NCBI RefSeq assembly: GCF_003148625.1
Contig: NZ_QGGO01000012.1
Coordinates: 1 to 64,000 of the forward strand
Reading direction: 5' to 3'
Source of the DNA: Arcicella aurantiaca
GTDB taxonomy: Bacteria; Bacteroidota; Bacteroidia; Cytophagales; Spirosomataceae
DNA length: 64,000 nucleotides
A program made the position numbers and the translations under genes. Below, piece after piece: positions 422 through 54,544 of the stretch (its first letter is position 1; each line of letters begins with the position of its first letter). The notes beneath the pieces were generated by a model. The model saw only the letters and a program-made list of their open reading frames with translations, searched no databases and was not told the DNA's origin.

Positions 422-3400
422 ATGAAAAATAAACATTTACGACAAAGTATTTTTTTATTGCTCACATTTCTGAGTTTTTATGCCTCTGCACAGGATAGAC
501 GTGTAACAGGTAAAGTCTCAGGGGTGGACGGACAAGGCATTCCTGGGGCATCTGTATTAGTGAAAGGTACACAAACGGGTACATCAACTGGAGCTAACGG
601 AGAATTTGCTATCAATGTAAAAAGTGGCAATGATGTATTAATGATTTCGTCTGTTGGATATACAGCAAGAGAAGTAAAGGTTGGTTCTCAATCAAATATC
701 GGAATTACGTTAACTGAAGATATTTCTGCCTTAGAAGAAGTGGTAGTGACTGGTTATGGTTCTCAATCAAAAAGAGACATTACAGGTGCAGTAACCACAG
801 TGGCAGCAAAAGATTTACAGTCTGTACCAGCAACTACTTTTGCACAACAATTGCAAGGTCGTGCTTCAGGTTTGAGTATTGTCAATGATGCTACGCCAGG
901 TGGTAACGCAACGGTGCGTATTCGTGGTTTTGGTACAATTGGTAACAACGACCCTCTATTTGTAATTGATGGTGTGCCAACTGAAAACCAAGGAAACTTA
1001 AACCCAAATGATATTGAGACTATCCAAATCTTGAAAGATGCTTCTTCTGCATCAATTTATGGTTCTCGTGCGGGTAATGGTGTTGTTATCATCACGACTA
1101 AAAAAGGAAAAGCAGGTGTGCCAAAAATCTCATTCAGTAGTTATTATGGTTCACAAAAAACATCGGAAGATGTTCAAGCTTTAAATGCTAAAGAATTGGG
1201 TCAGTATTTATATTTAGCTGATAAATATGCAGGAAAAACGCCTTCGCACGGTCAATATTCTTATGGAGCAAGTGGTGAAGTTACTATTCCAGCGTATGTA
1301 TTTCCAAGTAGAGGAGCAGAAGGAACTGCCGCAGTTGACCCTAAATTATATTCATTAACGCCTGATAATATCTACGCAATCACAAAATCAGCAGATACTG
1401 ATTGGTGGAAAGCTGTAACACAAACGGCACCGATTCAAAACTATCAATTGAATGCTACTGGTGGTACAGAAAATGGTCGTTATGCACTTTCATTGGGATA
1501 TTTCAACCAACAAGGTGTTGTGAAATTCATTGGCTATGAACGTTATACATTGCGTGCAAACACAGAATTCTCAGCAGTTAATAAGCGTTTGAGAGTAGGT
1601 GAAAACTTCACAGTATCTTTTGATAACAGACAAGGAGGTTTTGGAAATAACGAAGAACAAAATGCCGTTTCAGGTTCTTACAAACACCATCCATTATTAC
1701 CAATTTATGATATTGCAGGAAATTTTGCAGGTAGCCGTGGTGAGAACTTAGGTAACAACTCAAACCCTTATGCAACACTTTATCGTCAGAAAGATAACCA
1801 TACTTACCGTCTAAGAACTTTCGGTAATGCTTATGCTGAGTTTGACATTATTCCGAACTTAACAGCTAAAACAAGTTTCGGTATTGACTTAACTGGCGAG
1901 CGTGGATTGTATATCGGTCGTGCTAACCCAGAATATGTAGAAGGTAGCTTCAATAACGGTTCAACTTCACAAAATATCTACGATTATCAGTGGACTTGGC
2001 AAAATACATTGTCTTACAGCAAAACATTTAAAACTGTTCACAAATTTGATACTTACATTGGTCTTGAGTCTATCAAACGTTTTAGAGAAACTTTTGGAGC
2101 TGGTAGAAATGGTTATGCTTTCGAGACTAATCCAATTATTAGCTATTTAGATTTAGGAGACCCAACTAAGGTGTCTAACTATGGTGGTGTAAATGATGAC
2201 TTTACGCTTTGGTCGCAGTTTGGTAAAATCAACTATGCTTACGACAATAAATACTTAGTTCAATTTATCCTTCGTAATGACGCATCGTCTCGTTTCTTGA
2301 GTGCTTCTCGTAGTGCATTATTCCCTGCGGTCAGTTTAGGATGGCGTTTATCGGATGAGAAATTTATGAAAGAACAATTGCCAGCAGTAAATGACTTAAA
2401 ATTACGTTTCGGTTGGGGTAAAACAGGTAACCAAAAAATTGGTGACTACAATGCCTATACTACTTATCGTTCAGATATTTTCCATGCAGGTTATCCAATT
2501 GATGGTAGCCAAATCACGCCAACGATTGGTTATGATGCTCAAAGATTTGGTAATCCAAATGCAAAATGGGAAACAACAACTTCAACAAACTTTGGTTTAG
2601 ATGCAGCATTGTTAAACAGTAAATTGACATTTGAATTAGACTTCTGGACACGTACAACCTCTGATATGTTATTTACTGTACCTATTACTTTCACGGCTGG
2701 TGATGCAACACCTCCTGCCTTGAACGTAGGACAAATGACCAATAAAGGGATTGATTTTGGTTTGAATTACAAAAACTCAATTAAAGACTTCCGTTATAGT
2801 ATTGGTGCCAATATTTCATCTTACCGTAATAACGTAGATAAATTAGATGCCAGTCCAAATACAAGATATTTCGGTAATAGCTCACGTGTTCCAGCACTTA
2901 CACTTACACAAGCAGGTTTACCAATATCTTCATTCTTTGGTTATAAAGTATTAGGCATCTTCCAGTCTGACGAAGAAGCAAAAGCATGGGCTCCGTATGC
3001 AGATGGTTACAACAAAGCAGGTAAATTCAAGATTGCTGATATTAACGGTGATGGTAAAATTGATGATAGCGACCGTACAATTATTGGTAGTCCGCACCCA
3101 GATTTTGTATATGGTTTGAACTTGAACTTAGGTTACAAAGCATTTGATTTAACAGTTTTCATGAATGGTACACAAGGCAATAGCATCTTCAACTATACTC
3201 GTTATTTTACTGACTTCAACACATTCCAAGGAAACCGTTCTAAACGTGCCTTATACGAAGCATGGCAACCAACAAACAAAGGCGGTACTGTGCCAATTAT
3301 GGATGCAAACGACCAAGTTAGTAGCCGTCCATCAAGTTATTTTGTAGAAGATGGTTCATATTTCCGTATCAAAAACATTCAGTTGACTTACAACTTGCCA

Positions 3401-52048: not shown

Positions 52049-52954
52049 TCAATCCTGCCCATACCCAAACATTCGTAATTTTTGAGCTTTTTGTCTCCAA
52101 TCGGGTTCTACTTTGATGAACTGCTCCAAGAAAACTTTTTTACCAAAGAATTTTTCCATTGCTTCACGAGCTTGCGTACCTACTTTTTTGATGGATTCGC
52201 CTTTGTGACCAATCAAAATGGCTCTTTGGGTTACTCGCTCCACGTAAATTTCGGCTGAAATTCTAATCAAATTATCTTCTTCTTTAAATGCTGCAATTGA
52301 TACTTCGCAAGAATAAGGCACTTCTTTTTTATAATTTAAAAATATCTTTTCTCTGATTATCTCTGAAGCAAAAAAGCGTTCGGGCTTATCGGTCAGCTCT
52401 TCTTTGTCAAAATACGGCGGATGATTCGGTAAATGTTCAACGATTGAATCAAAAATTTCACCTGTATTTTGTTCTTTCAAAGCAGAAATTGGAATAATTG
52501 CTTGTGTTGGGAAACGTTCACGCCAATGAGCAATTTTTTCGGCAATTTGTTCTTCGGTTGCTAAGTCAATTTTATTAATCAATAATAAAACTGGAATATG
52601 GTCAATACGAGCAAGCTTGTCGATAACATCATCTTCATCGTATTTTTCAAAAATATCCGTTACAAACAAAATCACATCGGCATCTTCCAAAGAGCTATGC
52701 ACGAAGGTCATCATAGATTTATGTAACTCATATTTGGGAAGAATAATTCCCGGAGTATCAGAGTAAACTAATTGAAAATCAGTGCCATTATGAGTTCCAT
52801 TCAAAATGCCCATAATACGATGACGAGTAGTTTGAGCTTTTGAAGTAATAATACTGAGACGTTCCCCGACCAAGACATTCATTAGTGTTGATTTACCCAC
52901 ATTAGGTTTTCCAACAATACTAACAAAGCCTGCTTTATGATTGATTTGTTCCAT
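52049..52954 (-). CDS. era: Ribosome-assembly GTPase Era
   Basis: Era helps mature the 30S subunit by binding the 3' end of 16S rRNA. I choose the ATG at 52954, which gives 301 residues starting MEQINHKAGFVSIVG; the frame is open a little further upstream from a TTG. The GTPase domain has GKPNVGKSTLMN, DTPG and NKID. The C-terminal KH domain has the AILIGHKGESIKKVGTQARE block and ends WRQKAQKLRMFGY. The endonuclease-like gene ends 8 bp before this start, so the two may share a transcript. Confidence 0.96.
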   Translation of the reverse strand: MEQINHKAGFVSIVGKPNVGKSTLMNVLVGERLSIITSKAQTTRHRIMGILNGTHNGTDFQLVYSDTPGIILPKYELHKSMMTFVHSSLEDADVILFVTDIFEKYDEDDVIDKLARIDHIPVLLLINKIDLATEEQIAEKIAHWRERFPTQAIIPISALKEQNTGEIFDSIVEHLPNHPPYFDKEELTDKPERFFASEIIREKIFLNYKKEVPYSCEVSIAAFKEEDNLIRISAEIYVERVTQRAILIGHKGESIKKVGTQAREAMEKFFGKKVFLEQFIKVEPDWRQKAQKLRMFGYGQD

Positions 52955-52962
52955 TTTCTGAA

Positions 52963-53394
52963 CTATTGAATAGCTGATTTGAGTAAATGCCAAGCTTCTC
53001 TGTATTCGGCAGACTTGGGCTTTCGTTGTCTTTTTTCGGATTCTACAAAATGAATTTCAGAACTGTAACTGATGAATACATGAATTGGTAGAATGTAAAA
53101 GACTTGAATTTTGTCTAAATAAATAATGGCAAAGTCGAAGTCTGTTTCATGATACTTTTCTCTTAACATTACTCGTCGATTTGTTTTTGTACGACGATTA
53201 TCAGCCACATAATTTTGTCTGGACTCGTCAAACCAAGCACCTTTTACTTGAATTTTGATAAACTTTCCATCAATATCAAAAACCATATCGTAAGGTAATC
53301 TGTCTCCAAGTGGTTTCAGGACGTTCCAACCTTGTTTTAAAGCATGAAGGATAACGGCTTGTTCGGCAATATCTCCTTTGAGTTTTGTATCCAT
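52963..53394 (-). CDS. PD-(D/E)XK homing-endonuclease-like protein (I-Ssp6803I family)
   Basis: I choose the ATG at 53394, giving 143 residues that start MDTKLKGDIAEQAVIL. The residues Glu11, Asp36 (LPYDMVF), Gln49 and Lys51 (IKIQVKGAW) match, in type and spacing, the catalytic core of I-Ssp6803I as I recall it. That enzyme is the small PD-(D/E)XK endonuclease that homes into the cyanobacterial tRNA-fMet group I intron. A DNA-binding role is further suggested by NRRTKTNRRVMLREK in the middle and a basic C-terminal part. The gene lies 74 bp downstream of an intron-interrupted tRNA-fMet gene on the same strand, but outside the intron. Members of this family are also found without introns, so function remains inferred. 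Confidence 0.8.
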   Translation of the reverse strand: MDTKLKGDIAEQAVILHALKQGWNVLKPLGDRLPYDMVFDIDGKFIKIQVKGAWFDESRQNYVADNRRTKTNRRVMLREKYHETDFDFAIIYLDKIQVFYILPIHVFISYSSEIHFVESEKRQRKPKSAEYREAWHLLKSAIQ

Positions 53395-53422: not shown

Positions 53423-53462
53423 AAAAAAGCCAACTACTTTTTTATTAAGTAATTGGCTTTAA
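53423..53462 (-). terminator. Terminator of the tRNA-fMet transcript
   Basis: A 14-bp stem (53426-53439 with 53447-53460, one G-U pair) with a U run in the leftward transcript. It lies between the tRNA 3' end and the endonuclease-like gene, which therefore probably has its own promoter or relies on read-through. Confidence 0.8.
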
Positions 53463-53468
53463 AATTAG

Positions 53469-53803
53469 TAGCAGGAACAGGACTCGAACCTGTGACCTTT
53501 GGGTTATGCTTACCACTATAGTTTTCACTACCCTTACGGTTTGTGGTCTGGACTGTCTCTTTACCTTCAACTTAACTTGGTAAGGTTCTTGCCATTCAGT
53601 CTCTACACCTTCCTTATTGCTAAGGCTTGGCTCGGGATTGCCATACTTAAAGGGTTCCCCGAATTTGACAAATAATCACGTAAAAGTTTCTTTTTACGCA
53701 GCCCTCTTGCAAATTGATTGAATAAATTTTAAATAAGTAAATTTTAAAATTCTCAATTAACAATAATTTGAGCCCAACGAGCTACCTACTGCTCCATCCT
53801 GCG
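53469..53803 (-). tRNA. Initiator tRNA-fMet(CAU), interrupted by a group I intron
   Basis: Exon 1 (53803-53771, 33 nt) is the acceptor 5' strand CGCAGGA, the D arm GAGCAGTAGGTAGCTC and the anticodon 5' stem TTGGG plus CT. Exon 2 (53508-53469, 40 nt) starts with the anticodon CAT and holds the anticodon 3' stem CCCAA, the T arm ACAGGTTCGAGTCCTGT and the acceptor 3' strand TCCTGCT plus A73. Joined, this is a 73-nt initiator tRNA: three G-C pairs in the anticodon stem and an unpaired 1-72 position (C with U), the hallmarks of initiators. CCA is not encoded. The 262-nt insertion lies after U33. Confidence 0.93.
53509..53770 (-). ncRNA. Group I intron in the anticodon loop of tRNA-fMet
   Basis: The 262-nt insert follows U33 and ends in G (53509), as group I introns do. 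Core pairings are visible on the RNA strand: CGGG (53661-53658) with CCCG (53636-53633) for P4, GACUG (53601-53597) with CAGUC (53555-53551) for P7, and a P2-like hairpin CGUAAAA/UUUUACG (53698-53679). AAUUCGGGGAACCC and AAUCCCGAGCC match the usual P and Q strand styles. The first 65 nt are very AT-rich. P1 and the guide sequence are not firmly assigned. No reading frame lies inside the intron. Subgroup IC3 is likely by analogy to other bacterial tRNA introns. Confidence 0.88.
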
Positions 53804-53828: not shown

Positions 53829-53859
53829 CAAAGGTACGAAAGTTTTTTGGTTATGCAAG
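53829..53859 (-). promoter_or_regulatory. tRNA-fMet promoter (CTTG-N19-TACCTTTG)
   Basis: On the minus strand, CTTG at 53859-53856, a 19-bp spacer and TACCTTTG at 53836-53829, a near-perfect Bacteroidota promoter about 26 bp before the tRNA 5' end. Confidence 0.7.
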
Positions 53860-53893: not shown

Positions 53894-54514
53894 CTACTGA
53901 ATATTTGGGTCAATATCTTCGGCTTCTCCAATTTCAATTAGGCGGTCGAGGGTGAGTTTGCAGAGGGTGAACCATGATTTTAATATTTCAATGTCTTCTT
54001 CAATACCTATATTTTCAATTTGTATCCAAAGTATTTTTGTAGGTATTTTTTTTAGAAAGAAAACAGGATGGTCATCGTTTATCTTCAAAACTAAGTCTGT
54101 ACCTTCAAATGCTTCAAGAAATTTTTCTTGAAGATATTTTGTATCTAAGAATGTTAATAAACGTTTTTTTTGATTTGACTGTAAATAGATTTCGGCATCA
54201 AACTTTGTATTTCCAATTTCAATATCATTTATTCCAATATATTTTGCTGCGTAGCTAATTGCATTCTCCGAAGAAATTTCAAATGTAAATCTGTTTGTAG
54301 TAATGTACGGGCAAATGATTCTGGTATAAGTTTTTGAACTCCTTCCATTACCTTTTGAAAAAATATCTAATGTAATTTCTGTATTTCTATAATTAAATTT
54401 AACTTCGTTCGTTTCCCAAAATCCACCATCTACAAATTTTCCTTGTATTTCATGTGCTAATAATTTCCAATTTTCTTTTGCCCTCGAATAGAATAAATCT
54501 GTAAAAAAACTCAT
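53894..54514 (-). CDS. Hypothetical protein
   Basis: The ATG at 54514 gives 206 residues starting MSFFTDLFYSRAKENWKLLA. I recognise no family. The protein looks soluble and mixed alpha/beta: an amphipathic N-terminal helix, strands (NEVKFNYRNTEITLDIFSKG, YTRIICPYITTNRFTFEISS), a Lys-rich middle (QSNQKKRLLTFLDTKYLQE) and an acidic C-terminal helix (LCKLTLDRLIEIGEAEDIDP). It follows the ABC ATPase gene on the same strand by 30 bp and may share its transcript. Confidence 0.6.
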   Translation of the reverse strand: MSFFTDLFYSRAKENWKLLAHEIQGKFVDGGFWETNEVKFNYRNTEITLDIFSKGNGRSSKTYTRIICPYITTNRFTFEISSENAISYAAKYIGINDIEIGNTKFDAEIYLQSNQKKRLLTFLDTKYLQEKFLEAFEGTDLVLKINDDHPVFFLKKIPTKILWIQIENIGIEEDIEILKSWFTLCKLTLDRLIEIGEAEDIDPNIQ

Positions 54515-54544
54515 AGTTTTCAACTAATTACAATTAACCAATAA

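Follow-up and report, generated by a model that had tools for sequence, protein, structure and literature searches.

The initiator tRNA gene (tRNA-fMet) of Arcicella aurantiaca is interrupted by a group I intron, and a gene encoding a homologue of the homing endonuclease I-Ssp6803I lies just downstream of it. Judged from sequence comparison, the two probably make up a two-part mobile unit of the collaborative homing type in a bacterial chromosome; as in collaborative homing, a nuclease-free intron, here of 262 nt, stands next to a free-standing nuclease gene. The adjacent I-Ssp6803I homologue is the most informative part of the locus. A wider reading, which we regard as close to an even call, is that an intron and an endonuclease which share one target, the anticodon loop of the initiator tRNA gene, may have been repeatedly separated or rejoined across bacterial phyla while still travelling together, and that the outside pair acts as an addiction module from which the intron is lost only after the death of the enzyme. 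The features of the locus are collected in Table 1; the window is the whole 64,000-nt stretch of DNA that was analysed (contig NZ_QGGO01000012.1, positions 1 to 64,000).

Table 1. Features of the split tRNA-fMet locus, in window coordinates.
Feature	Coordinates	Strand	Basis or remark
TACCTTTG, resembling a Bacteroidota-type -7 promoter element, upstream of the tRNA	53829..53836	-	read from the sequence
tRNA-fMet 5' half, nt 1-33, ending at U33	53771..53803	-	33 nt; identical over nt 1-33 to the uninterrupted G002 and G004 genes
Group I intron, 262 nt, last base G	53509..53770	-	RF00028, 72.4 bits over 53740-53527; covariation in 30 relatives
Internal guide sequence GGG (pairs with C32, U33 and intron C1 to form P1)	53702..53704	-	30-row alignment
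P7 5' strand, GACU	53598..53601	-	4 pairs invariant in 30/30 rows
P7 3' strand, AGUC	53551..53554	-	30-row alignment
tRNA-fMet 3' half, nt 34-73, opening with anticodon CAU	53469..53508	-	40 nt; 100% match to spliced query nt 34-73
Terminator-like hairpin, 14 pairs, and T run, between tRNA and nuclease gene	53426..53460	-	
Free-standing PD-(D/E)XK homing-endonuclease-like gene, 143 aa, I-Ssp6803I homologue	52963..53394	-	PF11645, 2OST
era (GTPase), next gene	52049..52954	-	opens 8 nt after the nuclease stop codon

When the two halves are joined they give a 73-nt tRNA with anticodon CAU, an anticodon stem of TTGGG/CCCAA and a loop of CTCATAA. With the C1/U72 mismatch and the A11:U24 pair within the D stem (GAGC/GCTC), these features identify it as an initiator tRNA, which bears out the initial annotation of an initiator tRNA with CAU, three G-C pairs in its stem and an unpaired 1-72 position. 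The unsplit gene of two genomes of the same genus (G002 and G004) is identical to the joined halves at 73 of 73 positions, so the split is not a chance resemblance, and since the same uninterrupted sequence is also present in three more genomes of the genus (G003, G005 and G007) the insertion site is fixed near U33/C34. A CA repeat permits the boundary to shift by 1-2 nt, and only the chosen boundary leaves a U.G pair and a final G; with that boundary the 262-nt insert follows U33 and ends in G, as had been proposed. Run without its intron option, ARAGORN detected no tRNA in the 64-kb window, while with that option it found the split tRNA with a boundary 3 nt off and called it Leu(CAA); routine annotation could therefore miss or mislabel such a gene. 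Upstream, elements like TACCTTTG also precede tRNA-fMet in relatives, and its promoter role is presumed from its likeness to TAnnTTTG, which we take to be the Bacteroidota-type -7 consensus. Two terminator-like sites were found in the stretch against 0.9 expected from shuffles. Also upstream of the tRNA, a 209-aa reading frame (53894-54523, - strand) has no Pfam match, and a similar frame occupies the same place in G002 (L214).

The insert is a group I intron with a P3-P8 core and a P7 pseudoknot. It matches RF00028 with 72.4 bits over model positions 1-253 (E 2e-16 over the 64-kb window), above the gathering cut-off of 50 bits, which settles the group I identity for which this search had been suggested, and it is the sole RF00028 match found in the 5.93-Mb genome (70 contigs, 99.88% complete). 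Folded as a single sequence the insert is only modestly better than shuffles (z -2.1), and the case for the fold therefore rests upon a comparative alignment of 30 introns without a full nuclease gene, drawn from several phyla. RNAalifold found 58 pairs in this alignment, 32 of them with compensatory changes. With a hand-set structure that included P1 and the P7 pseudoknot, 95.1% of 1437 cells were paired and 25 of 48 pairs changed on both sides, with none of 500 shuffles as high; the cells changed on both sides numbered 200 against a shuffled mean of 58.7, and the signal was destroyed by sliding the partners. Covariation is seen in P2, P3, P6, P8 and P9. The P4- and P7-type pairings noticed earlier are both conserved in the alignment, but P7 is invariant and P4 varies in one cell, so neither adds covariation. 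In P1 the guide GGGC is invariant, and the C32-G pair and U33.G wobble occur in 30/30 rows; the third pair, at the position of intron C1, is CG in 28 rows and UG in 2. A P1 with a U33-A pair, the first pairing considered, was dropped in favour of the invariant GGG guide sequence. The terminal intron base is G in 30/30 rows, although this G belonged to the search pattern by which most of them were found.

In a quick tree of 121 intron cores, which has several long branches and weak deep support, the window's intron groups with other fMet introns and apart from the tRNA-Leu and tRNA-Arg introns of its relatives, and the Spirosoma introns form a separate branch. An origin of the window's intron among the family's own tRNA-Leu(UAA) introns was rejected on this clustering. 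Among 59 genomes searched, 13 gave an RF00028 match, the window's genome included. The relatives' group I introns also lie in tRNA-Leu(UAA) (L035, L040, L041, L044 and L045, with L038 and L042 assigned to Leu by their 3' halves) and in tRNA-Arg(UCU) (L039 and L043); L032 and L037 belong to the same set of introns in other tRNAs, which includes an Ile(CAU)-like tRNA. By eye, L038 and L042 seem to contain an HNH-like reading frame.

The nuclease gene begins 75 nt past the tRNA, beyond the terminator-like hairpin. Its product matches PF11645 with 163.8 bits (E 3e-48, cut-off 26.1) and has one strong match among solved structures, PDB 2OST (202.8 bits, E 2.3e-59, 137 residues homologous), a record itself titled 'Putative endonuclease' that we take to be I-Ssp6803I. 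It retains E11, D36, Q49 and K51, the catalytic residues in I-Ssp6803I numbering; in 50 aligned nuclease copies D36, Q49 and K51 are present in 50/50 and E11 in 49/50, the remaining one being a gap. Compared with the three nearest relatives, dN/dS is 0.05-0.13 at synonymous distances of at least 1. A TTG start at 53433 was rejected, as homology begins at the ATG at 53394. The next gene is era, named from its protein sequence. In the intron-less G002, G005 and G007 the tRNA terminator is followed directly by era with no nuclease gene between, and no PF11645 match was found in the same-genus genomes G002-G005 and G007.

From its fold, the nuclease-free intron after U33 would be expected to self-splice with a guanosine cofactor and so yield a working tRNA-fMet. 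The free-standing nuclease, for its part, would cut unsplit tRNA-fMet genes at the intron insertion site. Repair of the break from this locus could then copy the intron and the nuclease gene jointly, since they lie about 115 nt apart, and the intron would shield the host's own tRNA-fMet gene from the neighbouring enzyme. This target and this protection are suggested by the example of I-Ssp6803I, by the co-occurrence of intron and nuclease, and by the broken state of all nine nuclease genes beside unsplit tRNAs (see below). As the target would be an initiator tRNA gene, an outside nuclease should make loss of the intron costly for as long as the enzyme works.

Split tRNA-fMet genes were sought in named genomes through 3' halves of tRNA-fMet in which a G stands where U33 would be, which gave at least 115 stretches. 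In 102 of the 115 listed, from many phyla, the 5' half can be recognised and an insert of 150 nt or longer lies at the same site; the other 13 include cut contigs and doubtful cases, such as Bifidobacterium L059 and L122 and several Acidobacteria with a differently ending insert. The 115 listed loci come from Bacteroidota, Cyanobacteriota, Chloroflexota, Nitrospirota, Omnitrophota, Rhodothermota, Planctomycetota and others. The initial annotation rightly placed the window in the Bacteroidota, its family being Spirosomataceae of that phylum, but its expectation that such an intron would be unusual there does not hold, as Bacteroidota account for 22 of the 115 listed loci and about 15 of 222 Spirosomataceae genomes are split. 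Fourteen of these 15 were found by the pattern and one (G162) by inspection, the exact pattern missing variants of this kind; both tRNA halves are visible in 14 of the 15, and G195 is scored as split though its 5' half falls beyond the contig end. By the pattern, 43 of the 222 genomes fit neither the split nor the unsplit form, and a T match may represent elongator tRNA-Met; 'others' in the family counts below are accordingly genomes without the split signature. Fibrella aquatilis (L108) is also a member of the Spirosomataceae (Cytophagales) in the NCBI taxonomy. In the window's genus 3 of 8 genomes are split, and such variation within one genus counts against an old, vertically inherited resident. 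The intron persists without the nuclease, no nuclease gene being counted in 64 of the 115 listed split loci.

A viral carrier was considered and rejected. A search of viral_contigs, sensitive to close relatives only, found none, nor was the split-fMet pattern found there; in 15 phage records the only relatives were below 60% identity (28-35% in the 10 rows listed). None were found in plasmids.

The position of the nuclease gene differs between loci. Of the 115 listed, 24 have a full-length gene within the intron and 17 have one a short way downstream; 6 have a fragment inside and 4 a fragment downstream, and none of the loci has a nuclease both inside and outside. The score covers the same strand only, from 1000 nt ahead of the 3' half to 400 nt beyond it, and the 64 loci scored as having none include L098, where a scan of whole loci on both strands found a full gene upstream on the other strand, and L082, L085, L138 and L142, which have less than 100 nt of downstream sequence. 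In the listed loci, introns with an inside gene are 624-695 nt long, the gene beginning near the 5' end in the P1 loop, and introns accompanied by a downstream gene are 244-340 nt. Of 18 full outside genes in named listed loci, 17 are on the same strand and start 65-103 nt past nt 73 (tabulated distances are this offset plus one); the sole non-downstream named locus is L098 (Candidatus Omnitrophota), with a nuclease at 2453-2872 (+) upstream of the split tRNA at 2018-2287 (-). The 17 downstream genes belong to Bacteroidota (8), Cyanobacteriota (8) and Omnitrophota (1), and downstream genes also occur in 10 rows from the window's family, 4 of which duplicate named loci. Carriers of the outside form include Spirosoma sordidisoli, S. 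oryzae, S. fluviale and Calothrix brevissima.

A nuclease tree of 54 rows, from which the duplicates L227, L231, L234 and L235 were dropped, requires the gene to have changed between inside and outside at least 7 times, and well-supported branches force 5 of these switches; shuffled labels need about 16.5; parsimony on this tree gives no direction for the switches. L161 was scored as inside though its 5' half was not found, and L226 (G006) was labelled as outside though an inserted stretch separates the nuclease from the tRNA. A sensitive profile search found no nuclease remnant inside the introns of the outside loci, the window's included; nuclease remnants inside an intron appeared in that search only in L080, L088, L105, L120 and L148. 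L050 and L058, whose introns exceed 400 nt, lay outside the search, and fragments in both are known from the whole-locus scan.

The outside nuclease is coupled to the intron. In Spirosomataceae a nuclease match above 90 bits is present in 12 of 15 split genomes against 1 of 207 others, and in a sample of 192 genomes from the cyanobacterial family of Calothrix brevissima (42 split, 150 others), a match above 100 bits is present in 35 of 42 split genomes against 0 of 150 others (p 3e-16 and 9e-32 respectively, values which overstate independence because the genomes are related). A full uninterrupted gene is found in 11/15 split Spirosomataceae and in 0/207 others; any nuclease trace is found in 35/42 split genomes of the Calothrix family and in at least 8/150 others. 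In the best 30 cyanobacterial loci, 29 nucleases follow the split tRNA on its own strand, at a distance of 67-139 nt in 21 loci and of 240-1189 nt in 8, and the thirtieth, in G743, lies about 2.1 kb from the tRNA. Furthermore, distances between outside nucleases correlate with those between their intron cores (r 0.88, n=24, 0/2000 permutations), as they do within Bacteroidota (r 0.82, n=15, 0/2000) and, more weakly, in cyanobacteria alone (r 0.78, n=8, 38/2000). For inside nucleases r is 0.71 (n=24). The correlation with the tRNA exons is lower (0.25, n=46), the exons being short and conserved and hence a weak control. Both the co-occurrence and the distance correlation derive in part from shared descent; intron and nuclease are both absent in 5 same-genus genomes and their distances correlate, and no direct transfer event was seen.

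The nucleases found beside unsplit genes are broken. In G036 the tRNA is unsplit and a nuclease frame with an internal stop lies at the usual place. Nine weak fragments were read in genomes of the Calothrix family free of the split signature, and eight of these (in G798, G790, G750, G767, G782, G733, G810 and G752) proved to be remnants of fMet-type nucleases, in pieces or truncated, which directly follow an unsplit tRNA-fMet on the same strand; for the ninth, in G691, no tRNA-fMet was found nearby. Over the two families, full uninterrupted outside nucleases number 39 with a split tRNA (11 + 28) and 0 with an unsplit one, and broken or incomplete ones number 8 with a split and 9 with an unsplit tRNA (Fisher p 3e-6 against the full ones, again overstated by relatedness). 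The 28 are the stop-free loci among the 30 best cyanobacterial ones, the other 7 of 35 being scored as broken or incomplete. Broken genes alone beside unsplit tRNAs are what would be expected were an active enzyme incompatible with an unsplit target. The same pattern would equally result from introns being lost only once the enzyme has decayed, or from re-insertion of the intron by an enzyme that is still active.

These counts bear on two other accounts of the locus. The intron could be an old, mainly vertically inherited resident that splices and is immobile, with the nuclease as a separate intergenic homing gene for the same tRNA target ('intronless homing'). The 64 listed loci without a counted nuclease gene are consistent with this, as are the remnants by unsplit tRNAs in G036 and the eight cyanobacterial genomes, which look as if the nuclease were invading or outliving intron-free loci. 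However, full uninterrupted outside genes occur with the intron only, 39 to 0, all nine copies beside an unsplit tRNA are broken, and presence of the intron differs within one genus; we consider this account unlikely. A host takeover of the outside nuclease, which would have given up homing for another role such as defence or maintenance of the tRNA locus, is considerably less likely still. A homing gene is expected to come under weaker purifying selection after fixation, and the strong purifying selection on the nuclease at high synonymous divergence would suit such a takeover, but the outside nuclease is tied to the intron and broken copies are common: downstream fragments in 4 of the 115 listed loci, and those of G162, G036 and the eight cyanobacterial genomes. 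The two-part mobile unit is the reading that we prefer.

Whether the cell needs splicing depends on its other tRNAs. Five CAU tRNAs were found in the genome; besides the split gene they comprise an elongator tRNA-Met (C25:58421), a probable tRNA-Ile2 (C4:249388, so taken from its identity signature) and two initiator-like tRNAs in prophage-like regions (L219 and L220; G000:C8:200599-200671 and G000:C25:75278-75351). The latter two have A11:U24 and a 1-72 mismatch, and it is conceivable on these grounds that they serve initiation while the split gene is a silent pseudogene; Spirosoma sordidisoli, also split, likewise has an unsplit initiator-like CAU tRNA elsewhere in its genome. Both spares, though, have altered anticodon stems without the full GGG/CCC, and their surroundings include an integrase gene and methylase, PAPS-reductase and repressor genes of phage type. 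Further, the exons of the split gene are identical to the relatives' unsplit gene and the intron core is conserved, so that a silent pseudogene seems very improbable. The initial annotation made dependence on splicing conditional on this being the only initiator tRNA; in the genome searches it is the only copy with the canonical GGG/CCC stem, beside the two further initiator-like CAU tRNAs. In 19 genomes with an outside nuclease (17 full-length and 2 broken) a split tRNA-fMet gene was found in all, and matches to the unsplit form TCATAACCC..AGGTC occur in 4 of them only, all in the TAAGGTC form of the G000 elongator tRNA-Met, a pattern which divergent copies such as that of S. sordidisoli escape. 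It is likely that the cell depends on splicing for initiation, and a wider range of initiator tRNAs than before would probably need splicing before translation can start. tRNA-Met genes resembling the C8:200599 copy are common in phage records (263 records), and a phage tRNA copy with a changed anticodon region might escape a nuclease that cuts at the anticodon site.

To our knowledge collaborative homing is known from phages only. Gene 5.3 of phage T3 and I-TslI of phage PhiI, which Bonocora and Shub are said to have described in 2009, are reportedly free-standing and intronic homologues for one site; they concern a phage DNA polymerase gene and HNH nucleases, unlike the pair in the window. 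The tRNA-fMet intron known from cyanobacteria since 1994 likewise has the initiator tRNA as host gene and the same insertion site, and the core of the window's intron falls in one group with the cyanobacterial tRNA-fMet cores in the 121-core tree; the window's intron differs in being from another phylum, 262 nt long and nuclease-free. The window's nuclease resembles I-Ssp6803I over 137 homologous residues with the catalytic residues kept, but lies outside the tRNA gene, past a terminator-like hairpin, whereas I-Ssp6803I is described as a PD-(D/E)XK enzyme encoded inside a 655-nt Synechocystis tRNA-fMet intron (PMC1995217). F-CphI and the psbA intron of cyanophage S-PM2 provide a described case of collaborative homing, in which the intron blocks self-cleavage (PMC6083498), and a 2014 review reports collaborative homing from two different phages (PMC3984707). 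As here, the F-CphI gene is free-standing and adjoins an intron-bearing gene, but it is an Endo VII-type enzyme of a phage with a protein-coding host gene, in contrast to a PD-(D/E)XK enzyme beside a tRNA gene in bacterial chromosomes of three phyla.

The intron itself is of a known kind, and the outside nuclease in three phyla beside an essential tRNA gene is a new twist on the homing-intron theme. In the open-licence literature we recognised no report of an I-Ssp6803I homologue outside the tRNA-fMet intron or of a tRNA-fMet intron in Bacteroidota, though earlier mention is possible. The union of a self-splicing intron with a homing endonuclease into one mobile element is treated as an open question, discussed mainly from phage examples, in the 2014 review (PMC3984707). 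One site and one nuclease family present here the nuclease inside, the nuclease outside, a remnant inside, the intron alone, a decaying nuclease next to an uninterrupted tRNA, and sites that lack both, an arrangement that could show how mobile introns are assembled; since named species carry the outside form, its direction and mechanism are open to testing.

Other PDDEXK_5 proteins were met in the same searches. A second, distant group in Bacteroidota (L261-L265) is encoded inside tRNA introns, mostly of Arg-UCU; it shares the Pfam family and a tRNA as host gene with the window's nuclease but differs in its place inside the intron, in the tRNA concerned, and in scoring only 21-31 bits against the fMet-type profile. 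A third class, of about 58-87 bits and often in frames of 210-240 aa, is common in the cyanobacterial family of G641 and occurs also without a split tRNA-fMet (for example at G822:C1:1268225). In L252 (G195:C365:1-1500), the tRNA-fMet 3' half is followed downstream by a tandem array of three additional partial copies of itself and its terminator. In G006 the nuclease (L226) adjoins a repeat of the final 16 nt of tRNA-fMet (G006:C13:115107-115122), on a different contig from the tRNA (L217, G006:C31), and a 15-nt copy of the tRNA-fMet end is found at G004:C224:2697-2711. These short copies resemble attachment sites, as would be left by an integrative element that inserted at the tRNA-fMet 3' end and parted the tRNA from the nuclease.
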